From: Pseudoalteromonas sp. MM1
Lineage (GTDB): Bacteria > Pseudomonadota > Gammaproteobacteria > Enterobacterales > Alteromonadaceae
Assembly: GCF_030296835.1 (NCBI RefSeq)
Contig: NZ_AP027922.1
Location: 930,001 to 994,000, forward strand
DNA length: 64,000 nt
Reading direction: 5' to 3'
The notes under the pieces were generated by a model. It saw nothing but the letters and a program-made list of their open reading frames with translations. It did no database searches and was not told the origin of the DNA. Positions 4,080-17,560 of this stretch are shown piece by piece (position 1 is the stretch's first letter; each line of letters begins with the position of its first letter). The translations under genes and the position numbers were made by a program.

Positions 4080-4097
4080 GCCCCTTGCAAAAGGGGC
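4080..4097 (+). promoter_or_regulatory. Hairpin between argG and argH(A)
   Basis: GCCCCTT and AAGGGGC form a perfect 7-bp stem closed by a GCAA loop of the stable GNRA class. No T-run follows, so it does not look like a complete intrinsic terminator. It ends 23 nt before the argH(A) start and could be a processing or partial-attenuation element that sets the dose of ArgH(A) relative to ArgG. Confidence 0.55.
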
Positions 4098-4120
4098 ATT
4101 ACAGGGTTTGGAGAGATTTC

Positions 4121-5986
4121 ATGGCATTATGGGGCGGACGTTTTTCTACGGGTCCAGATGAGGCGTTTAAACAATTTAACGACTCACTTCCGTTCGATTA
4201 TCAGTTAGCAGAGCAAGACATTATTGGCTCTGTGGCATGGGCAGGTGCGCTTGAGCAAGTAAATGTACTTACAAGCGATGAGCACACAAAGTTAGTTGCA
4301 GCACTTAATGAACTGCTTGAAGAAGTAAAAGCAGATCCACAGGCTGTGGCAACCTCAGGTGCAGAAGACATTCACTCGCACGTAGAAGCTGCACTAATCG
4401 AAAAAGTAGGCGATTTAGCTAAAAAGCTACACACAGGCCGAAGCCGTAATGACCAAGTAGCCACCGACTTTAGATTATGGTGCCGCGATACTGCCGATCA
4501 TCTACTGGGTGCTATTGCTGCACTAAAAGCTGAGTTTGTGGCGTTAGCTGAGCGCGAACTGGGCACTATTTTGCCGGGTTACACTCACTTGCAACGTGCT
4601 CAACCGGTGTTATTTAGTCATTGGTGTATGGCCTACGTAGAAATGCTTGAACGTGATGAGAGCCGCCTACAAGATGCCAAAGCGCGTTTTAATTTTTGCC
4701 CTCTAGGCAGTGGTGCACTCGCTGGTACTGCATACCCAATTGATCGCCAATCGTTGGCGCAAGGCCTAGGCTTTACTGGCGCAACTAAAAACAGCCTTGA
4801 TGGCGTATCTGACCGTGATTTTGTAGTAGAGCTTTTAAGCTGTGCCTCTATTTCGATGATTCACTTATCACGTATGGCTGAAGATTTAATATTTTATAAC
4901 TCTGGTGAAGCCGGATTTATAGAACTTGCTGATAATGTTACCTCTGGCTCATCGTTAATGCCGCAGAAAAAGAACCCTGATGCGCTAGAGCTTATTCGTG
5001 GTAAAACTGGCCGTGTATTTGGCGCATTTAGTGCCATGATGATGACCTTAAAAGCACTTCCTCTTGCGTACAATAAAGATATGCAAGAAGACAAAGAAGG
5101 CCTTTTTGACGCTATGCCAACATGGCTTGCTTGTATTCACATGGCGCAAGCGTGTATTAAAGGCGTAAAAGTAAACGGCGATAAAACGCTTGCAGCGGCA
5201 AAAGGTGGCCATGCTAATGCAACTGAGCTTGCAGACTACTTAGTAGCTAAAGGTGTACCATTTAGGGAAGGTCACCACATTGTGGGTGTACTTGTGCAGC
5301 TTGCTATAAGCGAAGGTAAAACCCTTGAAGAGCTTTCGCTTGAGCAGTACAAGTCAGTTAATGACGTATTTGAAGATGACGTATATCCAGTACTTGAAAT
5401 AGATGCCTGTATTAAAGCGCGTCAAGCGCTTGGCGGTACCTCTATTGAGCAAGTGACTAAAGCAGTAAAAGAAGCCAAAAAAAAACAGCAAATAACGGTT
5501 CGTGATGCAAATTTAGATGATGTTGAAGATATTGCTCGGCTTATACAGCACTGGGCAACAGTAGGTGAAAACTTGCCGCGTGCAAAAAGTGACATGGTGC
5601 ATTCAATTAACGAATTTGCAGTAACAGAAATAGACGGCAAAGTGTCGGGCTGTGCATCGCTGTACATTTACGATACGGGGCTTGCTGAAATACGCTCTTT
5701 AGGCATAGATCCACAAAGTGCAGTAACGGGGCAAGGTAGGCAGCTTGTAGAGCACTTATTAGCAAAAGCCAAAAAATTGGCACTTAATCGCGTTATTGTA
5801 TTAACCCGCGTGCCAGATTTTTTTGAACAGCAACGTTTTACTTTTTGTAGCAAAGAATCGTTGCCAGAAAAAGTAATGAAAGATTGCGAGCTTTGTCTTC
5901 GTAAAGAAAACTGCGACGAAGTAGCAATGGAATATATTTTAAAGCCAAGTACACGTGCGGAGATCCCGTGTAAATACGTGGCTTAA
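4121..5986 (+). CDS. argH: Argininosuccinate lyase fused to N-acetylglutamate synthase domain
   Basis: A 621-aa fusion. Residues 1 to about 452 are argininosuccinate lyase (start MALWGGRF; signature [12 protein letters not shown] near residue 280). From about residue 458 a GNAT acetyltransferase follows ([10 protein letters not shown]; acetyl-CoA loop [12 protein letters not shown]), related to the ArgA acetyltransferase domain. Such argH(A) fusions are known from Moritella, Vibrio and other marine gammaproteobacteria and let one operon supply N-acetylglutamate. The ATG at 4121 is preceded by GGAGAG; a TTG at 4085 lies in the intergenic hairpin and is rejected. A run of nine A at the junction is discussed as a finding. 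Confidence 0.95.
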
Positions 5987-5997
5987 ATTCCCTGGAT

Positions 5998-6033
5998 ATA
6001 AAAAACGTACGGTTACCCCTGTACGTTTTTTTA
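5998..6033 (+). terminator. Terminator after argH(A)
   Basis: An inverted repeat, AAAAAACGTACGG with CCTGTACGTTTTTT, ends in a T-run directly after the argH(A) stop. It marks the end of the arginine operon and separates it from the accessory cluster downstream. Confidence 0.8.
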
Positions 6034-6274
6034 TGTGTATAATGCACTGGTCAGATGAGTTTGGCGTTAGTTAATATTAGGTTTTGTTTTAATAAATAGT
6101 AGTTGCTAGCATATATTTTTAATGTGTCAAAAAATATTGGCACACTGTTTGCTTTGTATAAGTCAGATAGCAAAATAGCTATCACTGCTTAAAACAGGTA
6201 ATGCAATTACCTACATGATGGTGTGATTAAAAGTTGCGCCAAATAATATTAAAACTTTTAAAAGGAACAATCAC

Positions 6275-6469
6275 ATGCAAGTTTCAGCTAATAGCCAATT
6301 ACAAATGCAAGCATACAATAAAACACAACAATTACAGCCTGCAACGGAACAAACTGCTAGCCCTAAAACCCTACAATCTGATACAGTAAGTTTCTCTCAA
6401 GAGGGTATAGCTGCAGCTGGTGCAGAATTACAGCGCGGTGGTGGTATGATACCTATAAGACCTAAGTGA
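6275..6469 (+). CDS. Unrecognised 64-residue peptide
   Basis: I do not recognise this gene. An AAAAGGAAC ribosome site precedes the ATG by a good distance. The product is hydrophilic and rich in Gln, Ala and Ser, with no signal peptide or membrane segment. The central part reads SDTVSFSQEGIAAAGAELQ, a pattern I associate with short conserved unknowns of marine gammaproteobacteria, and the end is RGGGMIPIRPK: a glycine triplet followed by a seven-residue tail with two prolines. It sits 16 nt upstream of six tandem membrane-protein paralogues on the same strand, so it is probably the first gene of that operon. A precursor peptide or an operon-specific partner is conceivable, but nothing proves it. 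Confidence 0.7.
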   Translation: MQVSANSQLQMQAYNKTQQLQPATEQTASPKTLQSDTVSFSQEGIAAAGAELQRGGGMIPIRPK

Positions 6470-6485
6470 TTAATTAAGGTTATAA

Positions 6486-7019
6486 ATGTTTTTAACTGAG
6501 TTTTTTGGCTTTTTTTCGCTTTCAGCATTTACAATGTGGGGGTTTTTAATGGCATTTTTTTTCAATGTCTTTGTTTACTCCCTAAACCTGAAAAGAGATA
6601 CAAACCTATTGCTCAGTTCGTTTGTAATGATGGTTTCTTATACTCTATCTGATTACTTCTTTACATGGCTGTCGATAAAAACTACTGTATATTTAGATTG
6701 GGCAATATACGATGTTCTAACTATATTAATTCTTTATGTGAGCCTAGCTTGTAAGAAAAAAGCTTCCTTTTCATTCATATACTTGATCGTAGGGCTATCA
6801 ATAAATTTAACTTTTTTTCTTTTGATGTATTTTGATTTATATGTACATCAAAACAAAGAAGAGTGGTTATTATGGGACATTTACGCAGTTTCAGTTAATA
6901 TTATAGACGTAATAATGATCGTTGCACTTATTGTTGATAGAGATATTCTCGGTCTTAATAAGGTAAAGAACAAAATCCTCAGCTACTCCAAGTTAAATGA
7001 TACCCACAAAGTAACTTAG
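6486..7019 (+). CDS. Tandem membrane-protein paralogue 1
   Basis: Unrecognised 177-aa integral membrane protein, first of six paralogues. About five hydrophobic helices are visible. Family landmarks are MWGFLMAFFFN in helix 1, YDVLTI in helix 3, GLSINLTFFLLMYFD in helix 4 and the IDVIMI segment in helix 5, followed by VDRDILGL. It lacks the SIN triplet after helix 1 and has WLLWDIY where the others have WWFW or WWYW, so it is one of the most divergent copies. A ribosome site (AAGG) lies before the ATG. The gap to the preceding peptide gene is 16 nt. Confidence 0.85.
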   Translation: MFLTEFFGFFSLSAFTMWGFLMAFFFNVFVYSLNLKRDTNLLLSSFVMMVSYTLSDYFFTWLSIKTTVYLDWAIYDVLTILILYVSLACKKKASFSFIYLIVGLSINLTFFLLMYFDLYVHQNKEEWLLWDIYAVSVNIIDVIMIVALIVDRDILGLNKVKNKILSYSKLNDTHKVT

Positions 7020-7024
7020 CTTAA

Positions 7025-7525
7025 ATGTACTTATCTGAAGCCCTAATGGATTATGTAGCGGCTTTCTCCCAATGGGGCTTTTTAATGGCCTTCCTCTATT
7101 GTTTAGTTTCTAGCATAAACAAAGAAAATAAATCTCCTGTTTATTTGTCTACGTTAATGCTTTGCTCATATATTTTCAGTAGCTATCTAAAACTGTTAGA
7201 TAACCTATATCTTAATTGGGCTTTATACGATTTTATTACGATTTTGGCGCTGTTCACATTACAATTTTTTAATGCTTTTAACCGTACTAAAGTTTTTCTG
7301 TTTCTCGTTCTGGCGTTAACAAGTAACGCTGTACTTACGATGATTCTATATTATGACATATACATTTTGTATACCTATGAACCATGGTGGTATTGGAGTG
7401 TTTACTCCATCGGAGTAAACGTAATTGATGTTTTAATGATGCTTTCATTAGTGATTAACCACCGAATGGTAAATCCCTCTCAACCCGTTATTTTAAATAG
7501 GGGGGAAAATGACAGTAAGTTATAA
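7025..7525 (+). CDS. Tandem membrane-protein paralogue 2
   Basis: Unrecognised 166-aa protein with five predicted helices. It has SQWGFLMAFLYCLVSSIN at the first helix, YDFITI in helix 3, EPWWYWSVY in the loop before helix 5 and IDVLMML within helix 5. The GLSxN motif of helix 4 is replaced by ALTSN. The start is 5 nt after paralogue 1. The end overlaps paralogue 3 by 17 nt, so the last codons carry the strong ribosome site of the next gene (a run of G). Confidence 0.85.
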   Translation: MYLSEALMDYVAAFSQWGFLMAFLYCLVSSINKENKSPVYLSTLMLCSYIFSSYLKLLDNLYLNWALYDFITILALFTLQFFNAFNRTKVFLFLVLALTSNAVLTMILYYDIYILYTYEPWWYWSVYSIGVNVIDVLMMLSLVINHRMVNPSQPVILNRGENDSKL

Positions 7526-8000
7526 TTACGCAATTTATCTTGGAGCAATTGTACAATGGGGTTTTTTGTTTGCATTTTTGCATGCATTAGCAAACTCGAT
7601 TAACAAGCCAGATAAAGAGCTTGTGTATATCTCACTTGTTATGTGCATTTGCTATTCGGGAAGCTTGTTCACTGATTATGGGCAAACTACTTATTTAGAT
7701 TTTATTTTATTAGATGGATGTACATTACTTGCACTTCTCTTTTTAAAGCGCTTCAAGTTTAAATCATGCCCTGTAGCGTATTGCTATGTAACGACTGGAT
7801 TATGCATTAATATTATTTTTAGTTTCTTAATGCACTTAGATATGACCTTATCAAAATATTATGAATATTGGTGGTTTTGGTCAGTATTTACGGTTGTGGT
7901 AGGGTGTGCAAATATTTGCATGATCATAGCGTGCTTTATAAATCGAGATTTTTTAGGTCTTGTTAATTTAAAAAGTCGGATCTTCAATAGAGTTTTGTAA
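7509..8000 (+). CDS. Tandem membrane-protein paralogue 3
   Basis: Unrecognised 163-aa member of the same family. Motifs: VQWGFLFAFLHALANSIN, LDGCTLLALLF, GLCINIIFSFLMHLD, YWWFWSVF and INRDFLGL. Helix 5 has CANICM where the others carry an Asp (VxDxxM), so this copy has lost one of the buried acidic residues. The start is set by a very strong upstream GGGGGG ribosome site inside the end of paralogue 2. It is followed by a 101-nt spacer, the only sizeable gap in the array. Confidence 0.85.
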   Translation: MTVSYNYAIYLGAIVQWGFLFAFLHALANSINKPDKELVYISLVMCICYSGSLFTDYGQTTYLDFILLDGCTLLALLFLKRFKFKSCPVAYCYVTTGLCINIIFSFLMHLDMTLSKYYEYWWFWSVFTVVVGCANICMIIACFINRDFLGLVNLKSRIFNRVL

Positions 8001-8101
8001 TTAATTAGAATTGTTAAAAAGTTTAATGTTAAGTCAGGTTGTGCAGTAAATGGTTGTTTTAATGAATTTCGAGAGCTTTATTCACCGAGCTTGCTTGTAA
8101 G

Positions 8102-8620
8102 ATGGGGTTTATTTCTTTTATCTCAGATATAAGCTTTGCACATACTTTAAGTATTATCATGCAATGGGGTTTTCTCATGGCATTTTTATACTCGTTAGTT
8201 TCGTCTATTAACTCACGCTTTAAGGCATTAGTTGTTCTTTCGCTTATAATGGCTGTTTCATATTTTCCAGGAATGTTCTTCAACTTTCAAACAGTTACTT
8301 ATTTTGATATTGCTTCATTAGATGCTATAACCCTTGTTATTTTGCTACTTGTGCAGAACCTATATATTAAAGAAAAAACAATTGCTTATGACTACCTTAT
8401 ATTTGGGCTTAGTATAAATATGTGTTTAGCTCTGGGTATGTATTTAGATCGTCATATTTTACAGAACTACACTCATTGGTGGTTTTATGATTTTTATGTG
8501 ACGGTAGTATTAGTATTAGATCTAAGCATGATTTTAGTGTTGTTTATCAATAGAGATTTCTTAAAAATTATTTTTTTCAAAAACCTTATTTGCTCGCTAT
8601 GTGCTAAGAAACCGCAATAG
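8102..8620 (+). CDS. Tandem membrane-protein paralogue 4
   Basis: Unrecognised 172-aa member of the family. Motifs: MQWGFLMAFLYSLVSSIN, LDAITLVILLL, GLSINMCLALGMYLD, HWWFYDFY, LDLSMI and INRDFLKI. The N-terminus is about ten residues longer than in the shortest copies. A 12-codon frame (8062-8100) ends one base before this ATG and could couple its translation. The stop TAG shares a base with the GTG start of paralogue 5. Confidence 0.83.
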   Translation: MGFISFISDISFAHTLSIIMQWGFLMAFLYSLVSSINSRFKALVVLSLIMAVSYFPGMFFNFQTVTYFDIASLDAITLVILLLVQNLYIKEKTIAYDYLIFGLSINMCLALGMYLDRHILQNYTHWWFYDFYVTVVLVLDLSMILVLFINRDFLKIIFFKNLICSLCAKKPQ

Positions 8621-9132
8621 TGAATAATGTTCTAATCCCTCCAGAAGTCTCAGTTTATATCGGTGTGTTAGTACAGTGGGGCTTTTTAATGGCCTTTTTA
8701 TATTCACTAACAACTAGCATTAACAATCCATCGAAAAAGGCTGTATGGCTATCTTTAGTTATGGCCATATCTTATTGCTTTAGTTTCTTTATAGATATTT
8801 ATGATATTACCTACATAGAGTTATTTTGCTATGACGTAGTCACGTTATTTTTTATTTTATGCCTACGATATTACCTACCTGAAAAGCGCATATCTGCTTA
8901 CTTATTATTTGGCTTGAGCATTAATTCGTTATTATTTTTAGCTATGCATATAGATGTGTTTGTACGTGGTAATTACGAACCGTGGTGGTTTTGGTCTTTT
9001 TATACGGTTGTTATTAATATGATGGATATCATTATGATTAGTATTTTTTTCGTAAAAAAGGATTTTTTAAGGTTTGTGTATGTTATGGATAAATTAACAG
9101 GCTTTATTATGAGGGCGAAGCAAGGTGGCTGA
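8620..9132 (+). CDS. Tandem membrane-protein paralogue 5
   Basis: Unrecognised 170-aa member with a GTG start overlapping the preceding stop by one base. Motifs: VQWGFLMAFLYSLTTSIN, YDVVTLFFIL, GLSINSLLFLAMHID, EPWWFWSFY, MDIIMI and VKKDFLRF. It is close to the consensus of the six. The end overlaps paralogue 6 by 8 nt. Confidence 0.85.
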   Translation: MNNVLIPPEVSVYIGVLVQWGFLMAFLYSLTTSINNPSKKAVWLSLVMAISYCFSFFIDIYDITYIELFCYDVVTLFFILCLRYYLPEKRISAYLLFGLSINSLLFLAMHIDVFVRGNYEPWWFWSFYTVVINMMDIIMISIFFVKKDFLRFVYVMDKLTGFIMRAKQGG

Positions 9133-9652
9133 TATCCTTTGGGAGCTTGTTGATTTAGGGTACAACGTAGCTGTTTTGTTTACGTGGTTTTTTCTTATTG
9201 CCTTTTTGTACAATTTATCGGCAAGTATTAATAAGGCAGATAAAAGCAGGGCACAGCTTTCATTTATTATGATGGCATCCTACACAGCTAGTTTGCTCAT
9301 GGACCCACTTGTTGCAACGCCACACTTAAATTATTTTTATTATGATGCTGTAACTCTCCTCGTTTTACTTTTGTGGCGTAATTTCACCAAGCAAACCATA
9401 CCTACGTCCTTTTATTATTTAATTATAGGACTAAGCTGTAATGCCTGCTTATTTTTAGGTATGCATTACGACATTGTTATACAGGGTACACTTTACTATT
9501 GGTGGTTTTGGACCGTATATACTTTTGGTATGTATTTTAGCGATTTCACAATGGCACTTGTGTTAATTATAAATAAAGATATTTTAGGCTTGATAAAGCT
9601 TAAACGCGCTTTGTTTAACCGCGGTGAATCACAAGCTATGGTTAGAAAGTAG
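9125..9652 (+). CDS. Tandem membrane-protein paralogue 6
   Basis: Unrecognised 175-aa final member of the array, with a GTG start inside the end of paralogue 5. Motifs: TWFFLIAFLYNLSASIN (QWGF has become TWFF), YDAVTLLVLLL, GLSCNACLFLGMHYD, YWWFWTVY, SDFTMAL and INKDILGL. It is followed by a short hairpin shared with the convergent coaD gene. Confidence 0.85.
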   Translation: MADILWELVDLGYNVAVLFTWFFLIAFLYNLSASINKADKSRAQLSFIMMASYTASLLMDPLVATPHLNYFYYDAVTLLVLLLWRNFTKQTIPTSFYYLIIGLSCNACLFLGMHYDIVIQGTLYYWWFWTVYTFGMYFSDFTMALVLIINKDILGLIKLKRALFNRGESQAMVRK

Positions 9653-9663
9653 TTTGGTAAATC

Positions 9664-9682
9664 AGCGCACCTAAAGTGCGCT
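9664..9682. terminator. Bidirectional hairpin between array and coaD
   Basis: AGCGCAC and GTGCGCT form a perfect 7-bp stem with a CTAAA loop between convergent genes. The T-tract is poor on both sides, so this is a weak or factor-assisted terminator. Confidence 0.5.
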
Positions 9683-9694
9683 TATTACGTTTAG

Positions 9695-10198
<504 letters not shown>

Positions 10199-10360
10199 CT
10201 ATTATTTTTTAAGTAGTCTATCAGTGTTTGTGGCACAAATCAGCTAAGCGTGTTTTTAAAATAGTAAATTATGATGGTATTTAAACCAACCTGATTTGTT
10301 TATACTGCAAGGCCGAGATTTTGTGTAATGTAGTTTATAAGTTAATTTGAGTCGTCGCAT

Positions 10361-11014
10361 ATGAATACCAAGGATAAAATAATACACACCAGTATTTCGT
10401 TATTTAATGAACATGGTGAACGTGCAATATCAACCAATCACATTGCATCACATTTAGGGATGAGCCCGGGTAACCTTTACTATCATTTTAAAAATAAAGA
10501 AGACATTATTCGGCATATTTTTGCGCTTTATAGTGAACACTTACATACTCACTTTAAACCTATTGAAGTAAACGATGATGCGTTTGATCATTTAACTGCT
10601 TATTTAGATTCTTTATTTGAGCTAATGTGGCGCTATCACTTTTTTTACGACAACTTAGGCGATATTCTCTCAAGAGACGAAAGTTTAAAAAAGGCCTATA
10701 TAGATTTTCAGGCAACGTTATTAGAGCAGGTTCGCCAAGTTATTTTAGGCCTGCGTGACAACGAAATGATTGCCATAGAAGAGCAAGATGCGCTTGAACT
10801 TGCCCATACGCTTAAACTAACCGTTAGTTTTTGGACTCCATATATTAAAGCGCGTAGGCTCAGTGGTAATTTAGCCGAGCAAGATATTTATCATGGTATT
10901 TTAAAAGTATTAGCGTTATTTAGGGCTTACAGCACCGAAAAAAGCATGCTTAAAATGAATCAGTTACGCGAAAAATACACCCAACTTGCAGAGCAAGCCC
11001 CAGCGCTTGCCTAA
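10361..11014 (+). CDS. TetR-family transcriptional regulator
   Basis: A 217-aa one-component repressor. The N-terminal helix-turn-helix is visible at about residues 20-48 (STNHIASHLGMSPGNLYYHFKNK), with the typical GNLYYHF recognition segment. The C-terminal ligand-binding half is helical with no diagnostic motif, so the ligand is unknown. The gene stands alone between coaD (divergent) and thiI. No efflux or metabolic target is directly adjacent. Confidence 0.9.
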   Translation: MNTKDKIIHTSISLFNEHGERAISTNHIASHLGMSPGNLYYHFKNKEDIIRHIFALYSEHLHTHFKPIEVNDDAFDHLTAYLDSLFELMWRYHFFYDNLGDILSRDESLKKAYIDFQATLLEQVRQVILGLRDNEMIAIEEQDALELAHTLKLTVSFWTPYIKARRLSGNLAEQDIYHGILKVLALFRAYSTEKSMLKMNQLREKYTQLAEQAPALA

Positions 11015-11050
11015 CTGCTGTTAGTTGGTTAGTTCCTAGACGCAAAAATT

Positions 11051-11061
11051 TTTGCTATAAT
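11051..11061 (+). promoter_or_regulatory. Extended -10 promoter of thiI
   Basis: TTTGCTATAAT carries a perfect TATAAT at 11056-11061 preceded by a TGC extension. It lies about 50 nt upstream of the thiI ATG, and I see no convincing -35 box. Confidence 0.6.
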
Positions 11062-11111
11062 CGCGCGCCCAATGCCTGGGAGCGCGAATTCCCGCAGTCT
11101 AAGAGTGAACT

Positions 11112-12569
11112 ATGCTTAAATTTATCGTCAAACTACATCCTGAAATTGCCATTAAAAGCCGTTCGGTACGTAAACGCTTTACTAAAGTGTTAGAAAATAA
11201 CATTAAAATTATGTTGCGCCGTGTTGACGAAAAAGTACAAGTAAGAAACAACTGGGATAATATTTCTGTTGTAACTAAGCTTGATGATGTACAAACACGC
11301 CTAAACTTTATTGATAGCCTGCAGCGCATTCCTGGCATTGTGCAATTTATTGAAGTGACCGAAACTGACTTCACTACGCTTGACGATATCTATAAAAAAG
11401 CCATAGACCTAGTAGGGCACACCATTGTTGGTAAAACGTTTTGTGTGCGCGCTAAGCGTATTGGTCAACATGACTTTACTTCTACCGATTTAGAGCGCTA
11501 CGTTGGCGGTGGTTTAAACCAGCATGTTGAAGGCGCGCGCGTTAAATTAAGTCGCCCAGAAGTCACTATTCGCTTAGAAGTAAAAGACGATAAAGCGTAC
11601 ATAGTCACGAAAACTCACCTTGGAATGGCGGGCTTTCCTCTGCCTACACAAGAAGACGTGCTTTCGCTAATGTCGGGTGGTTTTGACTCGGGTGTAGCAA
11701 GTTATCAGATGATCCGTAAAGGTGCTCGCACGCACTTTTTATTCTTTAACTTAGGGGGTGCAGCACACGAGATTGGTGTTAAACAAGCTAGCTACTATTT
11801 ATGGAAAAAATTTAGCTCTACCCATAAAGTTAAATTTATCACGGTTGATTTTGAACCCGTTGTTGCTGAGATTTTAGAAAACGTAGAAAACAGCCAAATG
11901 GGTGTTGTACTAAAACGTATGATGATGCGAGCTGGTAGCCAAGTTGCTGAAAAATTAAATATTCAAGCACTTGTAACCGGTGAGAGTATTGGCCAAGTTT
12001 CAAGCCAAACCTTAGCTAATTTAAGTGTGATTGACCGCGTAACAGAAACCCTTATTTTGCGCCCGCTTATTCAGCACGATAAGCAAGAAATTATTAATAT
12101 TGCCCGTAAAATCGGCACCGCAGAAATGGCCGAAACCATGCCTGAATACTGCGGCGTAATATCTAAAAAGCCAACGGTAAAAGCTAAAATTGACGTTATT
12201 AAAGCCGAAGAAGAAAAATTTGACTTTGATGTGCTCAATACCGTTGTTGAAAACGCGCGTATTATGGATGTGCGAGATATAGACGTAGAAGCAAAGCAAG
12301 AACTTAAAGAAGCTGAGTCGGTTGTTGATTTACCAGCGGGTGCAGTGGTTGTAGATATTCGCTCACCAGAGGAAGAAGATGCAGCGCCGCTTGAGATTGA
12401 CGGCATAGATGTAGTGCACTTACCGTTTTTCCGCTTAGCGACTAAGTTTGGTGACTTACCAAAAGATAAAGACTATTACCTGTATTGTGAAAGAGGGGTT
12501 ATGAGCCAGTTACAGGCACTTATTCTTCACGAAGCAGGCTTTACGGGTGTAAAAGTTTACCGCCCGTAA
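11112..12569 (+). CDS. thiI: tRNA 4-thiouridine synthase with rhodanese domain
   Basis: Sulfurates U8 of tRNA and supplies sulfur for the thiazole of thiamine. Order of domains: ferredoxin-like and THUMP region (residues 1-165), PP-loop ATPase with SGGFDS at 188-193, and a C-terminal rhodanese domain from about residue 390 whose active Cys is Cys459 in YCERGVMS. The MPEYCGV cysteine that pairs with it in the E. coli enzyme is present. The 485-aa length matches the long gammaproteobacterial form active in both pathways. Confidence 0.96.
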   Translation: MLKFIVKLHPEIAIKSRSVRKRFTKVLENNIKIMLRRVDEKVQVRNNWDNISVVTKLDDVQTRLNFIDSLQRIPGIVQFIEVTETDFTTLDDIYKKAIDLVGHTIVGKTFCVRAKRIGQHDFTSTDLERYVGGGLNQHVEGARVKLSRPEVTIRLEVKDDKAYIVTKTHLGMAGFPLPTQEDVLSLMSGGFDSGVASYQMIRKGARTHFLFFNLGGAAHEIGVKQASYYLWKKFSSTHKVKFITVDFEPVVAEILENVENSQMGVVLKRMMMRAGSQVAEKLNIQALVTGESIGQVSSQTLANLSVIDRVTETLILRPLIQHDKQEIINIARKIGTAEMAETMPEYCGVISKKPTVKAKIDVIKAEEEKFDFDVLNTVVENARIMDVRDIDVEAKQELKEAESVVDLPAGAVVVDIRSPEEEDAAPLEIDGIDVVHLPFFRLATKFGDLPKDKDYYLYCERGVMSQLQALILHEAGFTGVKVYRP

Positions 12570-12583
12570 TAAAGATTTATGAT

Positions 12584-12612
12584 AAAGCGTGGTTTATACC
12601 ACGCTTTTTTTT
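12584..12612. terminator. Shared terminator of thiI and the panE-like gene
   Basis: AAAGCGTGG and CCACGCTTT flank a TTTATA loop and are followed by eight T on the plus strand. The hairpin overlaps the last codons of the convergent minus-strand gene, so one structure ends both transcripts. Confidence 0.82.
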
Positions 12613-13496
12613 GCCTGAATTTTAGCAAGTAGGGCATCGTTTAGCGGTGTATTAATATTTAATCGCTTCCCTTGTTGGCTAATATAGCCACAAATGGCGT
12701 CTATTTCGGTTTGTCGGTTATGGGCAACGTCTTGATGCATTGAAGAGTAGTTTTCAGCGGTTAGCATCATTACGTTGTAGGCGTTGTTAAGCGCATCGGC
12801 CAGTTTAATATTAAGCTTTAAAGCATGGGCTACTTGGCATGCCTCAGTCAATAAGTTAAAAATAATGCTATTAAAATAAGGGGCACGTAACTGACCATTT
12901 TTAATATCATACAGTGCGCTTAATGGGTTAATGGCAATATTTACTAATAGTTTTTCAAACCGTAACTGCTCAATATTAGTACAGTAGCTTAGCTGCGGCA
13001 CGTTTTGCAATTGCTCACACATTGCTTGGCGATAACTGTGCGCGCATGGGTTGCAGGCACCTAATACGCTTTTACCTTCACCGGTGTGCTGTACTATAAA
13101 GTCGTTTGTTTTAAAGCCAGCCATGCTGGTTGTTAAAAAGTACAACGCTTGTTGTTTATCGAGTTGCTCATTGAGCGTTTCAACATTACCCATTCCGTTG
13201 TGCGATACAACAAGTACGCTACTTGGCGATAAAAAGGGTTTTACTTGAGTAAAGGCCGACTGCACCTGAAAAGCCTTTACGGCAAAAATAACAATATCAA
13301 ACGCGGACTGTTCATTAATTTGCTTAAGCGTAATAAATCGCGCATTTATTTTTTGCGAAGGCTGTTTTGCTTTGCAATAAAAACGTGTATTTGCAGTGGC
13401 TTTGCGTGTTAACACATGAACAGTGTGAGCTTTAGATAAAAAATGGCTTAGCAATAAACCAATAGCGCCGTCGCCAATAATAAGAATATTAGCCAT
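12594..13496 (-). CDS. panE: 2-Dehydropantoate 2-reductase family protein
   Basis: NADPH-dependent reductase of the ApbA/PanE family (ketopantoate to pantoate, for pantothenate and CoA). The N-terminal nucleotide-binding loop reads IIGDGAIGLLLSH (GxGxxG), and KLLVNIAINPLSAL is the usual catalytic-lysine segment near residue 190. The length is 300 aa. The start overlaps the VanZ-like gene by 8 nt, forming a two-gene minus-strand operon. The family includes enzymes with other 2-oxoacid substrates, so PanE identity is likely but not certain. Confidence 0.82.
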   Translation of the reverse strand: MANILIIGDGAIGLLLSHFLSKAHTVHVLTRKATANTRFYCKAKQPSQKINARFITLKQINEQSAFDIVIFAVKAFQVQSAFTQVKPFLSPSSVLVVSHNGMGNVETLNEQLDKQQALYFLTTSMAGFKTNDFIVQHTGEGKSVLGACNPCAHSYRQAMCEQLQNVPQLSYCTNIEQLRFEKLLVNIAINPLSALYDIKNGQLRAPYFNSIIFNLLTEACQVAHALKLNIKLADALNNAYNVMMLTAENYSSMHQDVAHNRQTEIDAICGYISQQGKRLNINTPLNDALLAKIQAKKSVV

Positions 13497-13842
13497 AAGG
13501 GTTCTTTTTTCGAGGAGTAAAAATGCTTCTTAGTAAAAAGTACATGGCCGCACCGGCAAAATCAGCAATAAAATCACCTAACGAGGCCTGCCTGTAGGGA
13601 AGCGCATCTTGCATTATTTCTATTGCTGCACCGTAGCCCGCAAGCAAGAGTACTTGCGTGTATAGCGGTAACTTAAAGGCCTTATCCATAATGATGGCGA
13701 GTATAAAAAAAATCCCAAAATGGGCAACTTTATCAACATGTGGAAATAAGTTCGTAACACCGCCTTTTATTTCTTTGGCAAATAAGAGGGTAAACACCAC
13801 AATACTAATCAAAAAAACTGCTTGGTAAACACGCCTTGTCAC
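13489..13842 (-). CDS. VanZ-like membrane protein
   Basis: A 117-aa protein with about four hydrophobic segments and the VanZ-family core: DKVAHFGIFFILAI around residues 38-51 and EIMQDALPYRQASLGDFIADFAGA near the third helix. The family is named after the teicoplanin-resistance protein VanZ, but most members have no known role. It is translationally coupled to the panE-like gene downstream by an 8-nt overlap. Confidence 0.8.
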   Translation of the reverse strand: MTRRVYQAVFLISIVVFTLLFAKEIKGGVTNLFPHVDKVAHFGIFFILAIIMDKAFKLPLYTQVLLLAGYGAAIEIMQDALPYRQASLGDFIADFAGAAMYFLLRSIFTPRKKNPYG

Positions 13843-13948
13843 GATAAATCCTAAAACCGCTTAAAAAAGAGGCTGCAGTATATCAAACTAAAATAGTATC
13901 GCACCTGAACAACGGGCAGAAAAATGTAAAGATTTATAATTTTAGCGT

Positions 13949-13954
13949 TATAAT
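13949..13954 (+). promoter_or_regulatory. -10 box of yajQ
   Basis: A TATAAT hexamer lies 39 nt upstream of the yajQ ATG, with a TGTAAA near 13925 as a possible -35. Confidence 0.45.
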
Positions 13955-13992
13955 CGGCGCATATATTTAGATTTAATAGTTAGGAGAACCCA

Positions 13993-14475
13993 ATGCCTTC
14001 ATTTGATATCGTATCAGAAGTAGAAATGAACGAAGCTAAAAATGCAGTAGATAACGCAAACCGCGAGCTAGAAACGCGCTTTGACTTTAGAGGGGTTGAC
14101 GCATCAATTGAGCTAAACGACAAAACAATTAAACTAAAAGCAGAAGCTGACTCACAAGTTATGCAATTGTTTGATATTTTAGCCGCTAAAATCTCTAAGC
14201 GTGGTATGGATGTAGCAAGCTTGGAGCTGCAAGACATTACTCGTGCTGGCAAAAATGTATTTCGTAATGTTGCACTTAAACAAGGCATTGAGAAAGATGT
14301 GGCTAAAAAAGTAGTTAAAGCCATTAAAGACTCAAAAGTAAAAGTACAAGCCGCTATTCAAGGTGAAGAAGTACGTGTAACCGGTAAAAAGCGCGATGAC
14401 TTACAAGCCGCTATGCAAGTGGTTCGCAACGCAGATTTGGGTCAGCCTTTTCAGTTTAAAAACTTTCGCGATTAA
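13993..14475 (+). CDS. yajQ: YajQ family nucleotide-binding protein
   Basis: A 160-aa DUF520 protein. The start [25 protein letters not shown] is highly characteristic and the C-terminal [15 protein letters not shown] is conserved. Members bind nucleotides; the Xanthomonas homologue is a cyclic-di-GMP effector, while the role in this group is unknown. A GGAG ribosome site precedes the ATG. Confidence 0.95.
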
Positions 14476-14509
14476 TTATTTATAGAACGGCTAGTTATAA
14501 ATAATACCT

Positions 14510-14555
14510 CTTCAACCTGCGCTTAATAATTTAAGCTCAGGTTGAGTTATTTTTA
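14510..14555 (+). terminator. Terminator after yajQ
   Basis: TCAACCTG-N-GCTTAA pairs with TTAAGC-N-CAGGTTGA (one internal mismatch) around a TAAT loop, followed by a T-rich stretch. Confidence 0.75.
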
Positions 14556-14649
14556 AGCGCTGTTAGCACTCTTAATAAAACAAATTATGTTTAATAATTA
14601 AGCTACTATACTTATACTCTTATTAAATATTTTTGCTTTAGGTGTATTA

Positions 14650-15441
14650 ATGAATCGCTACCAACTTTTAGTTTTTATTACTTTTGTATTTTTTAGTAGC
14701 TCAAGCACAAGTAAAGCAATAGATATAAATGTATTAGTAGAAGATGGTTACTTTCCTATAGTCATTAATGCTGAAAAACAGCAGGGCTTAGCCCCTGAAT
14801 TTATTAAAATATTAAACAATACCCAAAGTGAATATAACTTTATACTCAATTCATTACCTGTAAAAAGGTTGACCAAGTCAGTAGAGCAAAGCAGATTTGA
14901 TGTTTTATTTTTAATGGCGCAGCAATGGATCCCTTTATCAGCGCGAGAAAATATTACCCAAAGCAAATTTTATGTTATTACTAAAAATGAATTATATGCA
15001 CTTAAAGAAAACGCCAAAGATCAAACCTACTTTGATGACTTAAAACCATTAACTAAAGCTGGTGTACTTGGTTATTCTTATCACTTTGCAGGGTTTAATA
15101 CCGACGCGTATTACTTAAGCGAAGAGCATAATGTTAGCCTCACAGTTGATGAGTTTAATGTAGTAAAAATGCTGTTATTGCAGCGCTCAGATATCGGTGT
15201 TTTAAATAATATTGCTTATCAATATTTTAAAAATAAAAAAATATTCGATATGAGCCTGTTATATAAAAGCGAAAAACCAGACGCCGTGTTTGACACTCAC
15301 TTTTTAGTAAGCCCTAAGCAAAGCAAAATATCTGCATCTAAAATAGATTCAATTCTAAACTCAGCAGCTACAAAGCCCTATATTATAAAGTTACTAAATA
15401 AATACTCAGCACCATCTAGCTTTGATAATACACCAGAGTAA
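14650..15441 (+). CDS. Periplasmic solute-binding-like protein
   Basis: A 263-aa protein with a signal peptide (hydrophobic residues 6-20, cleavage near SSTSKA-ID). The mature part resembles the family-3 periplasmic binding fold: an N-terminal VLVEDGYFPIVI strand, GLAPEFIKIL and DVLFLMAQQW. No permease or kinase gene is adjacent, so it may be an orphan sensor or binding protein. The ligand cannot be read from the sequence. Confidence 0.75.
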   Translation: MNRYQLLVFITFVFFSSSSTSKAIDINVLVEDGYFPIVINAEKQQGLAPEFIKILNNTQSEYNFILNSLPVKRLTKSVEQSRFDVLFLMAQQWIPLSARENITQSKFYVITKNELYALKENAKDQTYFDDLKPLTKAGVLGYSYHFAGFNTDAYYLSEEHNVSLTVDEFNVVKMLLLQRSDIGVLNNIAYQYFKNKKIFDMSLLYKSEKPDAVFDTHFLVSPKQSKISASKIDSILNSAATKPYIIKLLNKYSAPSSFDNTPE

Positions 15442-15507
15442 TTAGGTTTTAGCTGTATAGACGTCCATTGACATTTGTAAACAAACTGCTCACAATAACA
15501 GCCTATT

Positions 15508-15681
15508 TTCAAGGTGCTTGCTGGTTGCTAAATACAGGGTTTAAAGTATTAAAACTGACAGCAAGATAATCGGGAAGTTGGTGCGCATTTATGATAAAAG
15601 CAATCCCAACACTGCCCCCGCAACGGTAAAGTATTAACACTTTTTTGAAGGTGCTTACTGAGTCCGGAGACCGGCCTTGAA
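15508..15681 (+). ncRNA. Cobalamin (adenosylcobalamin) riboswitch
   Basis: The canonical elements occur in order: closing stem TTCAAGG (15508) with CCTTGAA (15675), the central GGAAGTTGGTG paired with AATCCCAACACTG, the conserved GCCCCCGCAACGGTAAAG segment, and the B12 box GAGTCCGGAGACCGGCC at 15660-15676. It precedes the btuB start by about 50 nt, which predicts repression of the outer-membrane transporter when cobalamin is abundant. Confidence 0.95.
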
Positions 15682-15730
15682 GTAATCTTACTTACTTAAA
15701 TCTTTGCGGTGGGCAAAGGTAGGGACCATC

Positions 15731-17560
15731 ATGCTACATAAAACAACTCTTGGCGTTGCAATTTCTGCTGCGCTGTCATTTTCTGTGTCTGCTACAGATA
15801 ATTCAATCGAAAAAATTACCGTTACTGCTAATAAATTTGAGCAATCAATTAACGATGTTTTAGCCAGCGTTAATGTTATTGAGCGCGCTGAAATAGACGC
15901 AAGCAACGTACGTGACCTACCAACGCTGTTAAGCAAGCAAGTTGGTTTTCAAATTAATCCTAATGGTGGTTTTGGGCAAACAGCGGGTGTGTCATTACGT
16001 GGTACGGGGTCTGGCGATACATTAATTTTAATTGATGGTGTCCGTACGGGCTCGGCAACGCTAGGCCAAAAAGCACTTAATAATGTACCTTTAAACAGCA
16101 TTGAGCGTATCGAAATTATTAAAGGCTCACGTGCAGCAGTTTATGGCTCAGACGCACTTGCTGGTGTAATCAATATAATAACGCGTAATGCGAATAACTT
16201 GTCGCTTGATGCTACATTTGGATCAGATAATTATCAAAACTATCAAGTAGCGGGCTCTGTTAACTCAAAGGATGTGACAACATCGTTTAATGCAGGATAT
16301 GAAAAAACAGATGGTTTTGACGCATTACAAGGTGTGGCACCTGATGACGACGGTTATGAAAATAAAAACGTAGGCTTTAAAGTAAATTACAGTGATGAGC
16401 ACTACGGCGACTTTAAACTACTCGGTCAGTACAGCGAAGGTTACGCAGATTACGATAGTAGCTTTAGCCCTGCAACGAGCACGGTTGAAAGAGGGGACTT
16501 TAAAAACTATCAGTTATCTGCAGGCTGGAATAAACACTACACTAACCAATCTCATGCTATAAATGTTGCTTTTGCAACTGATGATTCACACGATACTTCA
16601 GCATTTGGCGAAAATGATTTTATAACTAAACGTGTGCAATTGGATTATAACGGTCAGTATAATTTATCAGAGGTACTTAATATTAGTGGCGGTGTTAACT
16701 GGTACAATGATGATGTAAGCCACAGCTCAACACAGTATGATGTACAAGAGCGTGATGTGTTAGCTGTATTTATTGGTGCATATTACAACTCTGAGAAAGT
16801 GTTAGCTAATTTAACTGTTCGCCAAGATGATGATGAGCAATTTGGTGACGAAACTACTTACACTGCGGCAGCCGGCTATCACTTATCTGAAGATGCAACC
16901 TTTAGAATAAGTCAAAGTACGGGTTTTAAAGCACCTACCTTTAACGATTTATATTTTCCAGCCTTTCCAGGTTTTCCACCTTCATCTAACCCTGATTTAG
17001 AGCCTGAAAAATCATTAAACCGAGAGATTGGATTAAATGTAGATTTTGATGTAGCAAGTGTTGATGTTGCTATTTTTAGAAACGATATTGAGGATAAAAT
17101 TTCTTTAGATACTAACTTTTTTCCAGTTAACGTAAGTGAAGCACGTTATGAGGGGATTGAGTTTAGCCTTTCACAGCAGTTTTTTGGTTTTGATAGCCAC
17201 TTTAATTTTGCATATTTAAGTGCCGAAAACCAAGAAACCGGCGATGAGCTACGCAATGTTGCTAAGCGCACTGTTAATTGGGAAATCGCAAAGCAGTTTG
17301 GTGATTTTGATGCTCGCATTGATATGCAATACCGTAGTGATCGCGAGGGGGCAGTAACACGCTTAGGGTCGTATACACTTTGGAACCTAGCGGGTAACTA
17401 TCATGTAAACGATAATATTGAGCTGTCGCTTCGTGTAGAGAACCTATTTGACAGAGATTACAATGTGGTTGACTCAAGAGCTGATTTTACAAGCGGTGAA
17501 GTGTATTACTACAACACCCCAGAGCGCCGCTTTTTTGCTGGTGCAAGCTATCAGTTTTAA
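15731..17560 (+). CDS. btuB: TonB-dependent vitamin B12 receptor
   Basis: Outer-membrane transporter for cobalamin. I chose the ATG at 15731 (AGGGA ribosome site just upstream), giving 609 aa with a signal peptide ending near SVSATD. A TonB box follows (EKITVTANKFEQ), then the plug domain (DTLILIDGVR; IERIEIIKGSRAAVYGSDALAGVINI) and a 22-strand barrel ending in a terminal Phe. The riboswitch upstream confirms the substrate class. No other cobalamin genes follow it here. Confidence 0.94.
   Translation: MLHKTTLGVAISAALSFSVSATDNSIEKITVTANKFEQSINDVLASVNVIERAEIDASNVRDLPTLLSKQVGFQINPNGGFGQTAGVSLRGTGSGDTLILIDGVRTGSATLGQKALNNVPLNSIERIEIIKGSRAAVYGSDALAGVINIITRNANNLSLDATFGSDNYQNYQVAGSVNSKDVTTSFNAGYEKTDGFDALQGVAPDDDGYENKNVGFKVNYSDEHYGDFKLLGQYSEGYADYDSSFSPATSTVERGDFKNYQLSAGWNKHYTNQSHAINVAFATDDSHDTSAFGENDFITKRVQLDYNGQYNLSEVLNISGGVNWYNDDVSHSSTQYDVQERDVLAVFIGAYYNSEKVLANLTVRQDDDEQFGDETTYTAAAGYHLSEDATFRISQSTGFKAPTFNDLYFPAFPGFPPSSNPDLEPEKSLNREIGLNVDFDVASVDVAIFRNDIEDKISLDTNFFPVNVSEARYEGIEFSLSQQFFGFDSHFNFAYLSAENQETGDELRNVAKRTVNWEIAKQFGDFDARIDMQYRSDREGAVTRLGSYTLWNLAGNYHVNDNIELSLRVENLFDRDYNVVDSRADFTSGEVYYYNTPERRFFAGASYQF

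Follow-up and report, generated by a model that had tools for sequence, protein, structure and literature searches.

In the pherotypes of the streptococcal ComC/ComD system, the multi-helix membrane partner changes along with the peptide, and in AgrD/AgrB a peptide is likewise encoded beside a multi-helix membrane protein with which it covaries. Repeated peptide units within one precursor are known from pheromone precursors. To our knowledge, there is hardly any example in the marine Gram-negative genus Pseudoalteromonas of a short, unmodified peptide signal that has a membrane partner dedicated to it. The membrane domain of ComD has six segments, and HPK10 sensors usually have five to eight (PMC4873836). 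RRNPP/arbitrium systems consist of two adjacent genes, a propeptide and its cognate receptor, and are also found on phages (PMC10075063). Regarding filamentous phages, two of ten hypothetical inovirus proteins tested conferred superinfection exclusion (PMC6813254), and PfsE achieves superinfection exclusion via PilC binding (PMC8764522).

Here we present the analysis of a locus of Pseudoalteromonas sp. MM1 within a window of 64,000 nt (the whole stretch of DNA that was analyzed, to which all coordinates refer). An initial annotation described it as a 64-aa peptide gene followed by six diverged genes for five-helix membrane proteins (5TM proteins), and this description was confirmed by the open reading frames (ORFs) and by an alignment with 17 columns invariant across the six copies. 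The peptide is probably an exported self-recognition peptide with a cognate 5TM membrane partner. Because its tail is swapped together with the adjoining membrane gene and the pair is found on phage-like elements, the locus looks like an undescribed self-recognition system. It is thus a testable candidate for peptide-based self-recognition in an abundant marine Gram-negative genus, and carriage of the pair on phage-like elements would tie host strain identity to phage biology.

Layout of the locus and the 5TM family

The peptide precursor gene (6275..6469, 64 aa) is followed by copy 1 (6486..7019, 177 aa), copy 2 (7025..7525, 166 aa), copy 3 (7509..8000, 163 aa), copy 4 (8102..8620, 172 aa), copy 5 (8620..9132, 170 aa, GTG start) and copy 6 (9125..9652, 175 aa, GTG start), all on the forward strand and delimited by ORFs and, for the copies, by alignment. 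According to the ORF coordinates, copies 2-3, 4-5 and 5-6 overlap by 17, 1 and 8 nt, whereas gaps of 16, 5 and 101 nt separate the precursor gene from copy 1, copy 1 from copy 2 and copy 3 from copy 4. The initial annotation had reported overlaps throughout except for the 101-nt gap, which holds for that gap and the three overlapping junctions but not for the two short gaps. The packing suggests that the array and the peptide gene form one operon. The module is flanked by argH on its 5' side (4121..5986, forward strand; the upstream neighbor in 18 of 18 named loci), with the ATG at 4121 chosen as the start within a listed ORF of 4085-5986, and by coaD on its 3' side (9695..10195, reverse strand; present in 17 of 18 named loci, the contig of the exception, L040, stopping inside the array). 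Both flanks lie outside the module. The argH product has a GNAT-like C-terminal extension, as judged by eye. A terminator-like hairpin 3' of the array (9664..9682, forward strand) is a candidate from a consensus scan, with no evidence of function attached to it. Positions 5900-6600 of the window yielded no Rfam match.

Copies 2-6 share 30-36% identity with copy 1, and the initial view of the array as old or diversifying fits the data. The shared motifs are present in the six copies as initially described, and the one loss of an acidic residue, in copy 3, concerns D141, which is N there. Since a profile of the six copies matched each of them at E≤2.5e-59 in a whole-genome search, and the sole other match at E≤1 (E 0.02) is interrupted by stops, the array represents more than chance. 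AlphaFold2 on 55 homologues predicted a five-helix bundle with a C-terminal helix (pLDDT 91.1), and charge bias points to an N-out/C-in topology. The invariant residues of the 55-member alignment are Y52, D76 and W127, with neither Cys nor His among its invariant or nearly invariant columns. Conserved polar residues within helices or at their edge are D76 (D or E in 20/20 rows of a wide set of sequences), N107, D117 and D141, of which D117 and D141 are not retained in the 5TM copies of phage elements. Copy 1 forms a positional class of its own (19/19). None of 65 non-first copies had a first copy as its nearest relative (<90% identity), so that a model of the later copies as displaced first-copy immunities was left unsupported.

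Searches of Pfam, NCBIfam, PADLOC and PHROGs gave no match above the curated cut-off and none consistent across the 55 members, the best stray matches (E 6e-4 to 2e-3) occurring in one or two of them. Neither a kinase nor an output domain was found in the Pfam scan of the 55 members, no PDB sequence matched the 5TM proteins, and no solved fold matched the predicted structure at E≤0.001. The lack of Pfam, NCBIfam and PDB-sequence matches agrees with the earlier statement that no named system has this layout. Among structure models in BFVD, phage proteins of 135-178 aa were matched with Foldseek probabilities reaching 1.00 but in no case at E≤0.001, and are taken as a lead only; the phage phiCbK protein named by BFVD was not found in the 50 kb searched of the 215.7-kb record.

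Precursor structure and distribution of the module

The precursor consists of a leader and a short tail, often headed by RGGG. In the window the leader comprises residues 1-53 (6275..6433, forward strand), of which residues 1-44 are conserved in a 13-sequence alignment and of the MQ type, and the variable tail RGGGMIPIRPK (6434..6466, forward strand) is the putative mature peptide. R54 is invariant across the 13 aligned precursor types and variation begins after it, a pattern consistent with cleavage before R54. In other precursors the tail is repeated, with nine units of RGGGIIKT (L061), three of RGGGVIIT (L056), two of RQGGVIIT (L057) and, in the precursor of phage KB12-38, two of RGGGDVIVSPRPK. 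Double-glycine-type (GG) leaders, the end of which immediately precedes the tail, occur in other genomes and in phage-like elements. A leader end of GG, GA, GS or AG fits 34 of 34 precursors listed as GG type (a list that excludes G034, L142, L143 and L145 and that, like the pattern, was drawn up after the precursors had been seen), and in 32 of the 34 the tail opens with R immediately after the leader end. Tails are mostly hydrophilic in both leader classes: MQ and other non-GG tails, which are cut at R by construction, measure 8-15 aa with a median GRAVY of -0.76 (37 distinct tails), and GG-type tails measure 11-30 aa with a median of -1.00 (30 distinct tails). MQ-type leaders contain no recognized export signal, and a double-glycine end is not obvious in the window's own leader. 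A weak FlgM match of one leader (E 0.028, under the cut-off) was left out of account.

C39 exporters were counted in 54 same-genus genomes (G000-G053). Strong matches (E≤1e-20, a threshold of our own) were found in 18 of 18 GG-leader genomes versus 6 of 31 MQ-leader genomes (p 1e-8). The five genomes set aside, i.e., G033, G036 and G044 (no 5TM), G041 (element copy only) and G034 (unclear leader), all have a strong match; because these include all three module-less genomes searched (G033, G036 and G044), the exporter follows lineage. No exporter gene was found next to the module, either in the window or in the gaps of a subset of the relatives.

An intact small peptide gene lies directly 5' of the first 5TM copy in 80 of 82 same-genus genomes examined there, and the number of 5TM copies varies from 1 to 9 matches per genome, some broken. 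Copy number and the leading position of the peptide gene had been proposed as checks by the initial annotation, and the outcome that would have refuted it was therefore not observed. Six genomes lack 5TM, and in all of them peptide and 5TM genes alike are missing from the argH-coaD locus; all six keep the TetR-like gene that lies beyond coaD in the window. A 5TM gene without an intact peptide gene occurs in G011 (peptide degraded) and G078 (none found), and G072 has an orphan 5TM gene in addition to a paired one. Single-copy modules are common. As judged from these sequences, the core unit is not a six-gene array but the peptide gene with one 5TM gene, a pair that stands by itself in many genomes as well as in phage-like elements. 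The leader/tail structure, tail repeats, double-glycine-type leaders, cassette exchange and phage copies had not been part of the initial annotation.

The pair is also present in integrase-bearing phage-like elements of these bacteria and in a tailed phage, in unrelated surroundings. Some carrier elements resemble filamentous prophages. Outside the genus, profile A1 matched 0 of 58 other-genus genomes. Profile A3 gave strays only, in four other-genus genomes among 394 of the order (E 0.0014-0.0074) and in four others among 369 of the class (E 0.0019-0.0094), searches in which no more than 8-9 candidates were scored for each genome, and profile A5 gave two partial extra-genus matches among 295 genomes of the order (E 3.4e-4 and 0.0042), each covering <65 residues of a long frame. 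Tblastn of plasmids and phages with single 5TM proteins returned no credible match, and none was found in viral contigs searched with A1, the peptide alignment and the tailed-phage 5TM protein.

Exchange of the tail and copy 1

The window was compared with locus L051, the ArgH of which is 100% identical over 620 residues (argH 98.0% at the nucleotide level). Leader residues 1-44 are 97.7% identical in nucleotides, level with the flanks, whereas the tail is 63.9% identical and copy 1, beyond its first 90 nt, 61.5%. Identity thus falls from 98% to about 62% within the peptide gene, close to where leader and tail meet, and remains low across copy 1. Over 37 loci, tail and copy 1 covary given ArgH and leader (partial Mantel r 0.42, p 0.0002), and the value holds with copy 2 controlled in addition (0.42, p 0.0005, n=34). 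In contrast, the correlation of the tail with copy 2, 0.20 before control, vanishes once copy 1 is controlled (r 0.013, p 0.39), and ArgH does not covary with copy 1. The 37 loci were drawn from 66 gathered, leaving out GG-type and repeat or odd precursors, L107 (short copy 1) and L028 and L052, which do carry the peptide but whose tails were missed by the pattern; in the copy 2 analysis of 34 loci, those ending inside copy 2 were given the copy 2 of a sister whose copy 1 is the same. Near-duplicate strains were retained in the counts, and named loci may partly repeat other genomes of the sample. Among 36 pairs of strains that hardly differ in ArgH but have different tails, copy 2 is almost as diverged (median identity 0.56) as copy 1 (0.52); where two strains have like tails, they also tend to be closer kin (median ArgH 0.96). 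At the level of sequence pattern, tail and copy 1 are swapped from strain to strain as a single specificity cassette, and pairs of strains that differ in cassette but hardly in their flanks offer natural material for specificity testing.

Interpretation and comparison with known systems

In the proposed mechanism, the product of the small gene is probably exported, the leader would direct this export, and the short tail would act as the peptide proper. By tail covariation and by its positional class, copy 1 is the likely cognate partner; it would be an inner-membrane protein of five helices whose binding side, as charge bias suggests, faces the periplasm, and would recognize the tail. Copies 2-6 would be older positional paralogues. 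Counting against a peptide-partner pair are the single peptide facing up to nine 5TM matches, the lack of a kinase or regulator within the module, the 5TM genes without intact peptide (G011 and G078) and the orphan of G072, and the MQ leaders without recognized export signal, 25 of 31 such genomes also lacking a strong C39 match. As to the outcome, we lean tentatively, at somewhat less than even confidence, towards signal and receptor over toxin and immunity because the tails are short, mostly hydrophilic and repeatable within one precursor.

A bacteriocin-like peptide with its immunity protein, the extra 5TM copies guarding against the peptides of other strains, is a serious competitor, if a doubtful one. 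It would explain why 5TM genes persist without an intact peptide (G011, G078 and the orphan L147) and why the peptide is absent from the locus in all six 5TM-less genomes, both in small numbers, as well as the single peptide against 1-9 5TM matches, some broken, the 5TM proteins without output domain and the carriage of the pair by phages; GG-type leaders and C39 exporters, present in part of the genus, also occur in class II microcins. Known class II microcins, however, are unlike such short, mostly hydrophilic tails (8-15 aa non-GG, 11-30 aa GG), and the absence of any non-first copy nearest to a first copy (0/65, <90% identity) argues against a simple hoard of foreign immunities. Among the roles initially proposed, a peptide-responsive membrane or immunity module fits these data, whereas a multi-subunit channel received no positive evidence. 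A channel or transporter formed by 5TM proteins, with the peptide as small regulatory subunit or ligand, is highly improbable: several paralogues could build a hetero-oligomer and conserved polar residues lie in or at the edge of the helices (D76, N107, D117 and D141), but single-copy modules are common, D117 and D141 are lost in phage-element copies, and no solved fold matches at E≤0.001.

Since tail and copy 1 are adjacent, block recombination alone could yield part of their covariation, and linkage may be part of its explanation; the nearly equal divergence of copies 1 and 2 in the 36 strain pairs and the closer kinship of strains with like tails likewise count against the paired reading. 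That the peptide gene merely shares a recombining block with functionally unconnected membrane proteins is improbable, even though it lies 16 nt from copy 1 in the window, copies 1 and 2 correlate given ArgH (0.448), tail and copy 2 do so before copy 1 is controlled (0.20), and partial correlations persist between leader and copy 1 (0.21) and between tail and ArgH (0.16). The identity break falls inside the peptide gene, the pair moves jointly in phage-like elements and phage amid unrelated surroundings, and, unless the tail has a function, its repeats and its position straight after GG are difficult to account for. Co-occurrence and covariation would also be expected of an enzyme and the substrate that it processes, and the lack of a strong C39 match in 25 of 31 MQ-leader genomes points the same way; yet a 5TM exporter or maturation protease, AgrB-for-AgrD style, is quite improbable given that no Cys or His is invariant or nearly so beside Y52, D76 and W127, that GG-leader genomes hold both 5TM and C39 exporter, and that variation sits in the tail, not the leader. 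A wider extension of the signaling reading, which we regard as unlikely in full, is a kinase-less peptide communication of Gram-negative bacteria, with RGGG peptides, interchangeable leaders, 5TM readers, pherotype swaps, carriage by filamentous and tailed phages, and sensing or jamming between prophage and host. No paper on an RGGG peptide in Pseudoalteromonas was found in the literature searched (subscription papers and preprints lay outside its scope), and nothing resembling the peptide-5TM pair was noticed in the available portions of the literature on Pseudoalteromonas and double-glycine.

Compared with the accessory modules of inoviruses, the pair is likewise a small module in apparent filamentous prophages, a likeness of setting, but its chromosomal copies lie between argH and coaD. 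Unlike AgrB, the 5TM family has no invariant Cys/His protease residues. With RRNPP/arbitrium it shares the two adjacent genes, also on phages; in place of a cytosolic helix-repeat receptor, it has a partner predicted to span the membrane with five helices, and the host is Gram-negative. Class II microcins and other GG bacteriocins resemble it in the GG/GA/GS leaders and C39 exporters found in part of the genus (the exporters also in genomes lacking the module) and in the small membrane partner gene adjoining the peptide gene, but no exporter adjoins the window's module, no killing is known, and the tails here are shorter and mostly hydrophilic by comparison. With ComC/ComD of streptococci the locus has in common a precursor in which a conserved leader precedes a short, variable mature peptide, a double-glycine leader (here in part of the family only, and not obvious in the window), a multi-helix membrane protein (five predicted helices, pLDDT 91.1) and the covariation of peptide and partner, of which linkage may be part. 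It differs from ComC/ComD in a 5TM protein without kinase domain and a module without response regulator (the neighbors in the window being argH and coaD), and in its several 5TM paralogues, its Gram-negative host and its phage copies.

The argH-coaD array and its distribution

In the window, the interval between argH and coaD is occupied by a 64-aa peptide gene (6275-6469, + strand) followed by six genes (6486-9652, + strand; copies 1-6) of a family of five-helix membrane proteins, here called 5TM. Identity to copy 1 is 30-36% for copies 2-6, and 17 columns are invariant across all six. No curated cut-off match was obtained for any of the six, no PADLOC or PHROGs family was common to more than two of 55 5TM members, and no solved-structure sequence matched the 5TM profile. 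The predicted structure (AlphaFold2, 55 homologues, pLDDT 91.1) consists of five long helices and a further helix at the C-terminus. Mean counts of K+R are 2.27 in loop 1-2, 2.15 in loop 3-4 and 5.80 in the C-tail, against 0.13, 0.29 and 0.60 for the N-terminus and remaining loops; this charge bias predicts an N-out/C-in topology. Y52, D76 and W127 are invariant in 55/55 members. In a broader set extended to phage copies, position 76 is D or E in 20/20 rows, and D117 and D141 are lost in the phage-copy rows (one exception at D117). We infer that the periplasmic half of the protein is lined or bordered by D76, N107 and W127. Three 5TM proteins (L066, L068 and L075, from genomes G066, G002 and G016) have an unusual C-terminal end (...MLQA or ...ILQA) after a long basic tail.

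The six-copy profile was matched (E<=0.001) in the window's own genome, in 82 of 88 other genomes of the genus and in 0/58 genomes of other genera, with 1-9 matches per genome and broken copies in some arrays. Wider profile searches of order and class genomes, scoring at most 8-9 candidates per genome, gave no credible member outside the genus, and the 18 named relatives with the family are all Pseudoalteromonas. At these loci (8-12.5 kb), argG and argH lie upstream in 18/18 and coaD downstream in 17/18. A convergent gene, Wzi-like by eye, separates the module from coaD at L071:2054-3409 and in L046, L049, L053, L076, L083, L061, L066 and L058; it is absent from the window.

A 5TM match of any kind occurs in 83 genomes; the first copy was inspected in 82 of them, and an intact peptide ORF lies directly 5' of it in 80; the exceptions are G011 (degraded ORF) and G078 (none found). 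The sole match of the remaining genome, G041, sits in a phage-like element, with a peptide gene present. In all six same-genus genomes without 5TM, the argH-coaD locus holds neither gene; coaD follows argH there with one convergent gene in between, which looks Wzi-like by eye. An extra orphan 5TM gene in G072 (L147:5974-6492, E 1e-57) has no peptide gene in front and transposase-like ORFs (by eye) nearby.

Leader types, phage-borne pairs and exporters

Residues 1-44 of the precursor are conserved and the tail is variable (13 aligned types), with R54 invariant in 13/13. Some precursors repeat a tail unit: RGGGIIKT nine times with short spacers (L061), RGGGVIIT three times (L056), RQGGVIIT twice (L057) and RGGGDVIVSPRPK twice (tailed phage KB12-38). 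Precursors of a second genome group and of phage-like elements resemble the double-glycine type (GG type; the window's leader is termed MQ type). From a list and leader pattern drawn up after inspection of the precursors, 34/34 GG-type precursors fit a hydrophobic pattern ending GG, GA, GS or AG, and in 32/34 the tail begins with R directly after the leader. Tails of MQ and other non-GG precursors have a median length of 13 aa and a median net charge of +2. One precursor adjoining a 5TM gene (L145) starts with a Sec-like signal (by eye). Thus at least two leader kinds, and perhaps three, would deliver one kind of tail beside a single family of membrane proteins.

A divergent peptide/5TM pair adjoins an integrase gene in G034, G017, G064 and G041. 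The G034 element (L142) has Pfam matches to phage integrase (PF00589, PF24624) and, at E 2e-71, to a GPA-type replication gene (PF05840), with a CI-repressor match below cut-off (E 0.0015); the other three elements were judged relatives by eye. The order integrase, peptide, 5TM recurs in 6/6 IMG/VR contigs, three of which (L157, L158, L162) have the pairs already described for G034, G017 and G041. In L159 and L160, small coat-like proteins (by eye) suggest filamentous phages. In 5/6 contigs 5TM is followed by a third gene, about 90 aa long. In phage-like elements it overlaps the 5TM end (L142:6462-6746, L143:6393-6674, L144:6462-6731, L146:5711-5983) and encodes one N-terminal hydrophobic helix and an acidic remainder (by eye); it was not seen in the window's array. 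In KB12-38 (MF098558.1), peptide gene ASV43966.1 is directly followed by a distant relative of 5TM, a 208-aa ORF without a listed CDS (L136:8257-8880; 25.3 bits, E 5e-8 within the 16-kb locus). One phage-element 5TM protein was modelled, from an alignment including chromosomal members, and its model again shows five long helices (pLDDT 84.3).

A strong match to a C39 exporter (E<=1e-20, a cut-off fixed after viewing the list) was found in 18/18 GG-leader versus 6/31 MQ-leader genomes searched, own genome included (Fisher p 1e-8). It was also found in 3/3 searched genomes without the module; the exporter therefore follows lineage, and the association is weak evidence for cause. The C39 exporter of the window's genome (G000:C1, about 166,000) is adjoined by a 50-aa Gly-rich GG-leader peptide ORF (L151:5523-5675). 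Another C39-exporter locus (L153, G047:C1:2160490-2180000, about 6585-16166) is a large double-glycine peptide cluster, with some 20 small ORFs in a row fitting the GG/GA leader pattern, eight of which nearly repeat MKTLTQ.DIQAVNGAGS... or MKQLTQ....

Exchange of the tail and first copy

The window and the Pseudoalteromonas sp. P1-25 locus (L051) do not differ at any of the 400 residues of ArgG or the 620 of ArgH. Nucleotide identity is 97.6% in argG, 98.0% in argH, 96.9% in the spacer and 97.7% in leader residues 1-44, versus 63.9% in the tail region (residue 45 on), 82.2% over the opening 90 nt of copy 1 and 61.5% in its remainder; the break thus falls within the peptide gene.

With ArgH and leader controlled for, tail and copy 1 distances are correlated over 37 loci (partial Mantel 0.42, p 0.0002), and ArgH and copy 1 are not (-0.05, p 0.82); weaker ties remain between leader and copy 1 (0.21, p 0.0002) and between tail and ArgH (0.16, p 0.0004). 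With copy 2 included (34 loci), the tail-copy 1 value given ArgH and leader is 0.46, and 0.42 with copy 2 also held; that for tail and copy 2, again given ArgH and leader, is 0.20, falling to 0.013 (p 0.39) when copy 1 is controlled for as well. Among strain pairs with ArgH >=97% and tails <70% identical (36 pairs), the leader has a median identity of 0.98, copy 1 of 0.52 and copy 2, which therefore also turns over, of 0.56. Where tails are >=80% alike (30 pairs), the medians are 0.76 for copy 1, 0.63 for copy 2 and 0.96 for ArgH, so that like-tail pairs are also closer relatives. Neighbouring genes share recombination blocks, and linkage probably explains part of the covariation. That linkage is not the whole explanation is suggested by the sharpness of the break, by the mobile pairs and by the disappearance of the copy 2 signal with copy 1 controlled for.

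For 84 copies from 19 arrays (nearest relative taken below 90% identity), the nearest relative of a first copy is another first copy in 19/19 cases, and that of a later copy is a first copy in 0/65. These counts indicate that the array consists of old positional classes rather than a store of displaced first copies.

Interpretation and comparison with known systems

The most economical account is a putative exported peptide paired with its own cognate protein in the membrane. By our own estimates, a signal and its receptor are a substantial possibility, somewhat short of probable: most tails are small and hydrophilic, and some precursors carry repeated tails. A toxin and its immunity protein are slightly less probable, and would accord with the lack of an output domain, with carriage by phages and with the presence, at this locus, of a few 5TM genes without peptide and never of a peptide without 5TM.

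ComCDE, microcins, RRNPP and AgrBD work in ways similar to the proposed peptide/5TM pair, but the module lacks a defining feature of each. A kinase domain with neighbouring response regulator, which defines ComCDE, is absent (Pfam scan of the 55 members; window neighbours argH and coaD); exporter genes, a defining feature of microcin clusters, are not found beside it in the window or in the gaps of the listed relatives; and the conserved His/Cys protease residues of the AgrBD membrane protein have no counterpart among the invariant or nearly invariant columns of the 55-member 5TM alignment. RRNPP systems have a cytosolic helix-repeat receptor, whereas the partner here is a predicted five-helix membrane protein.
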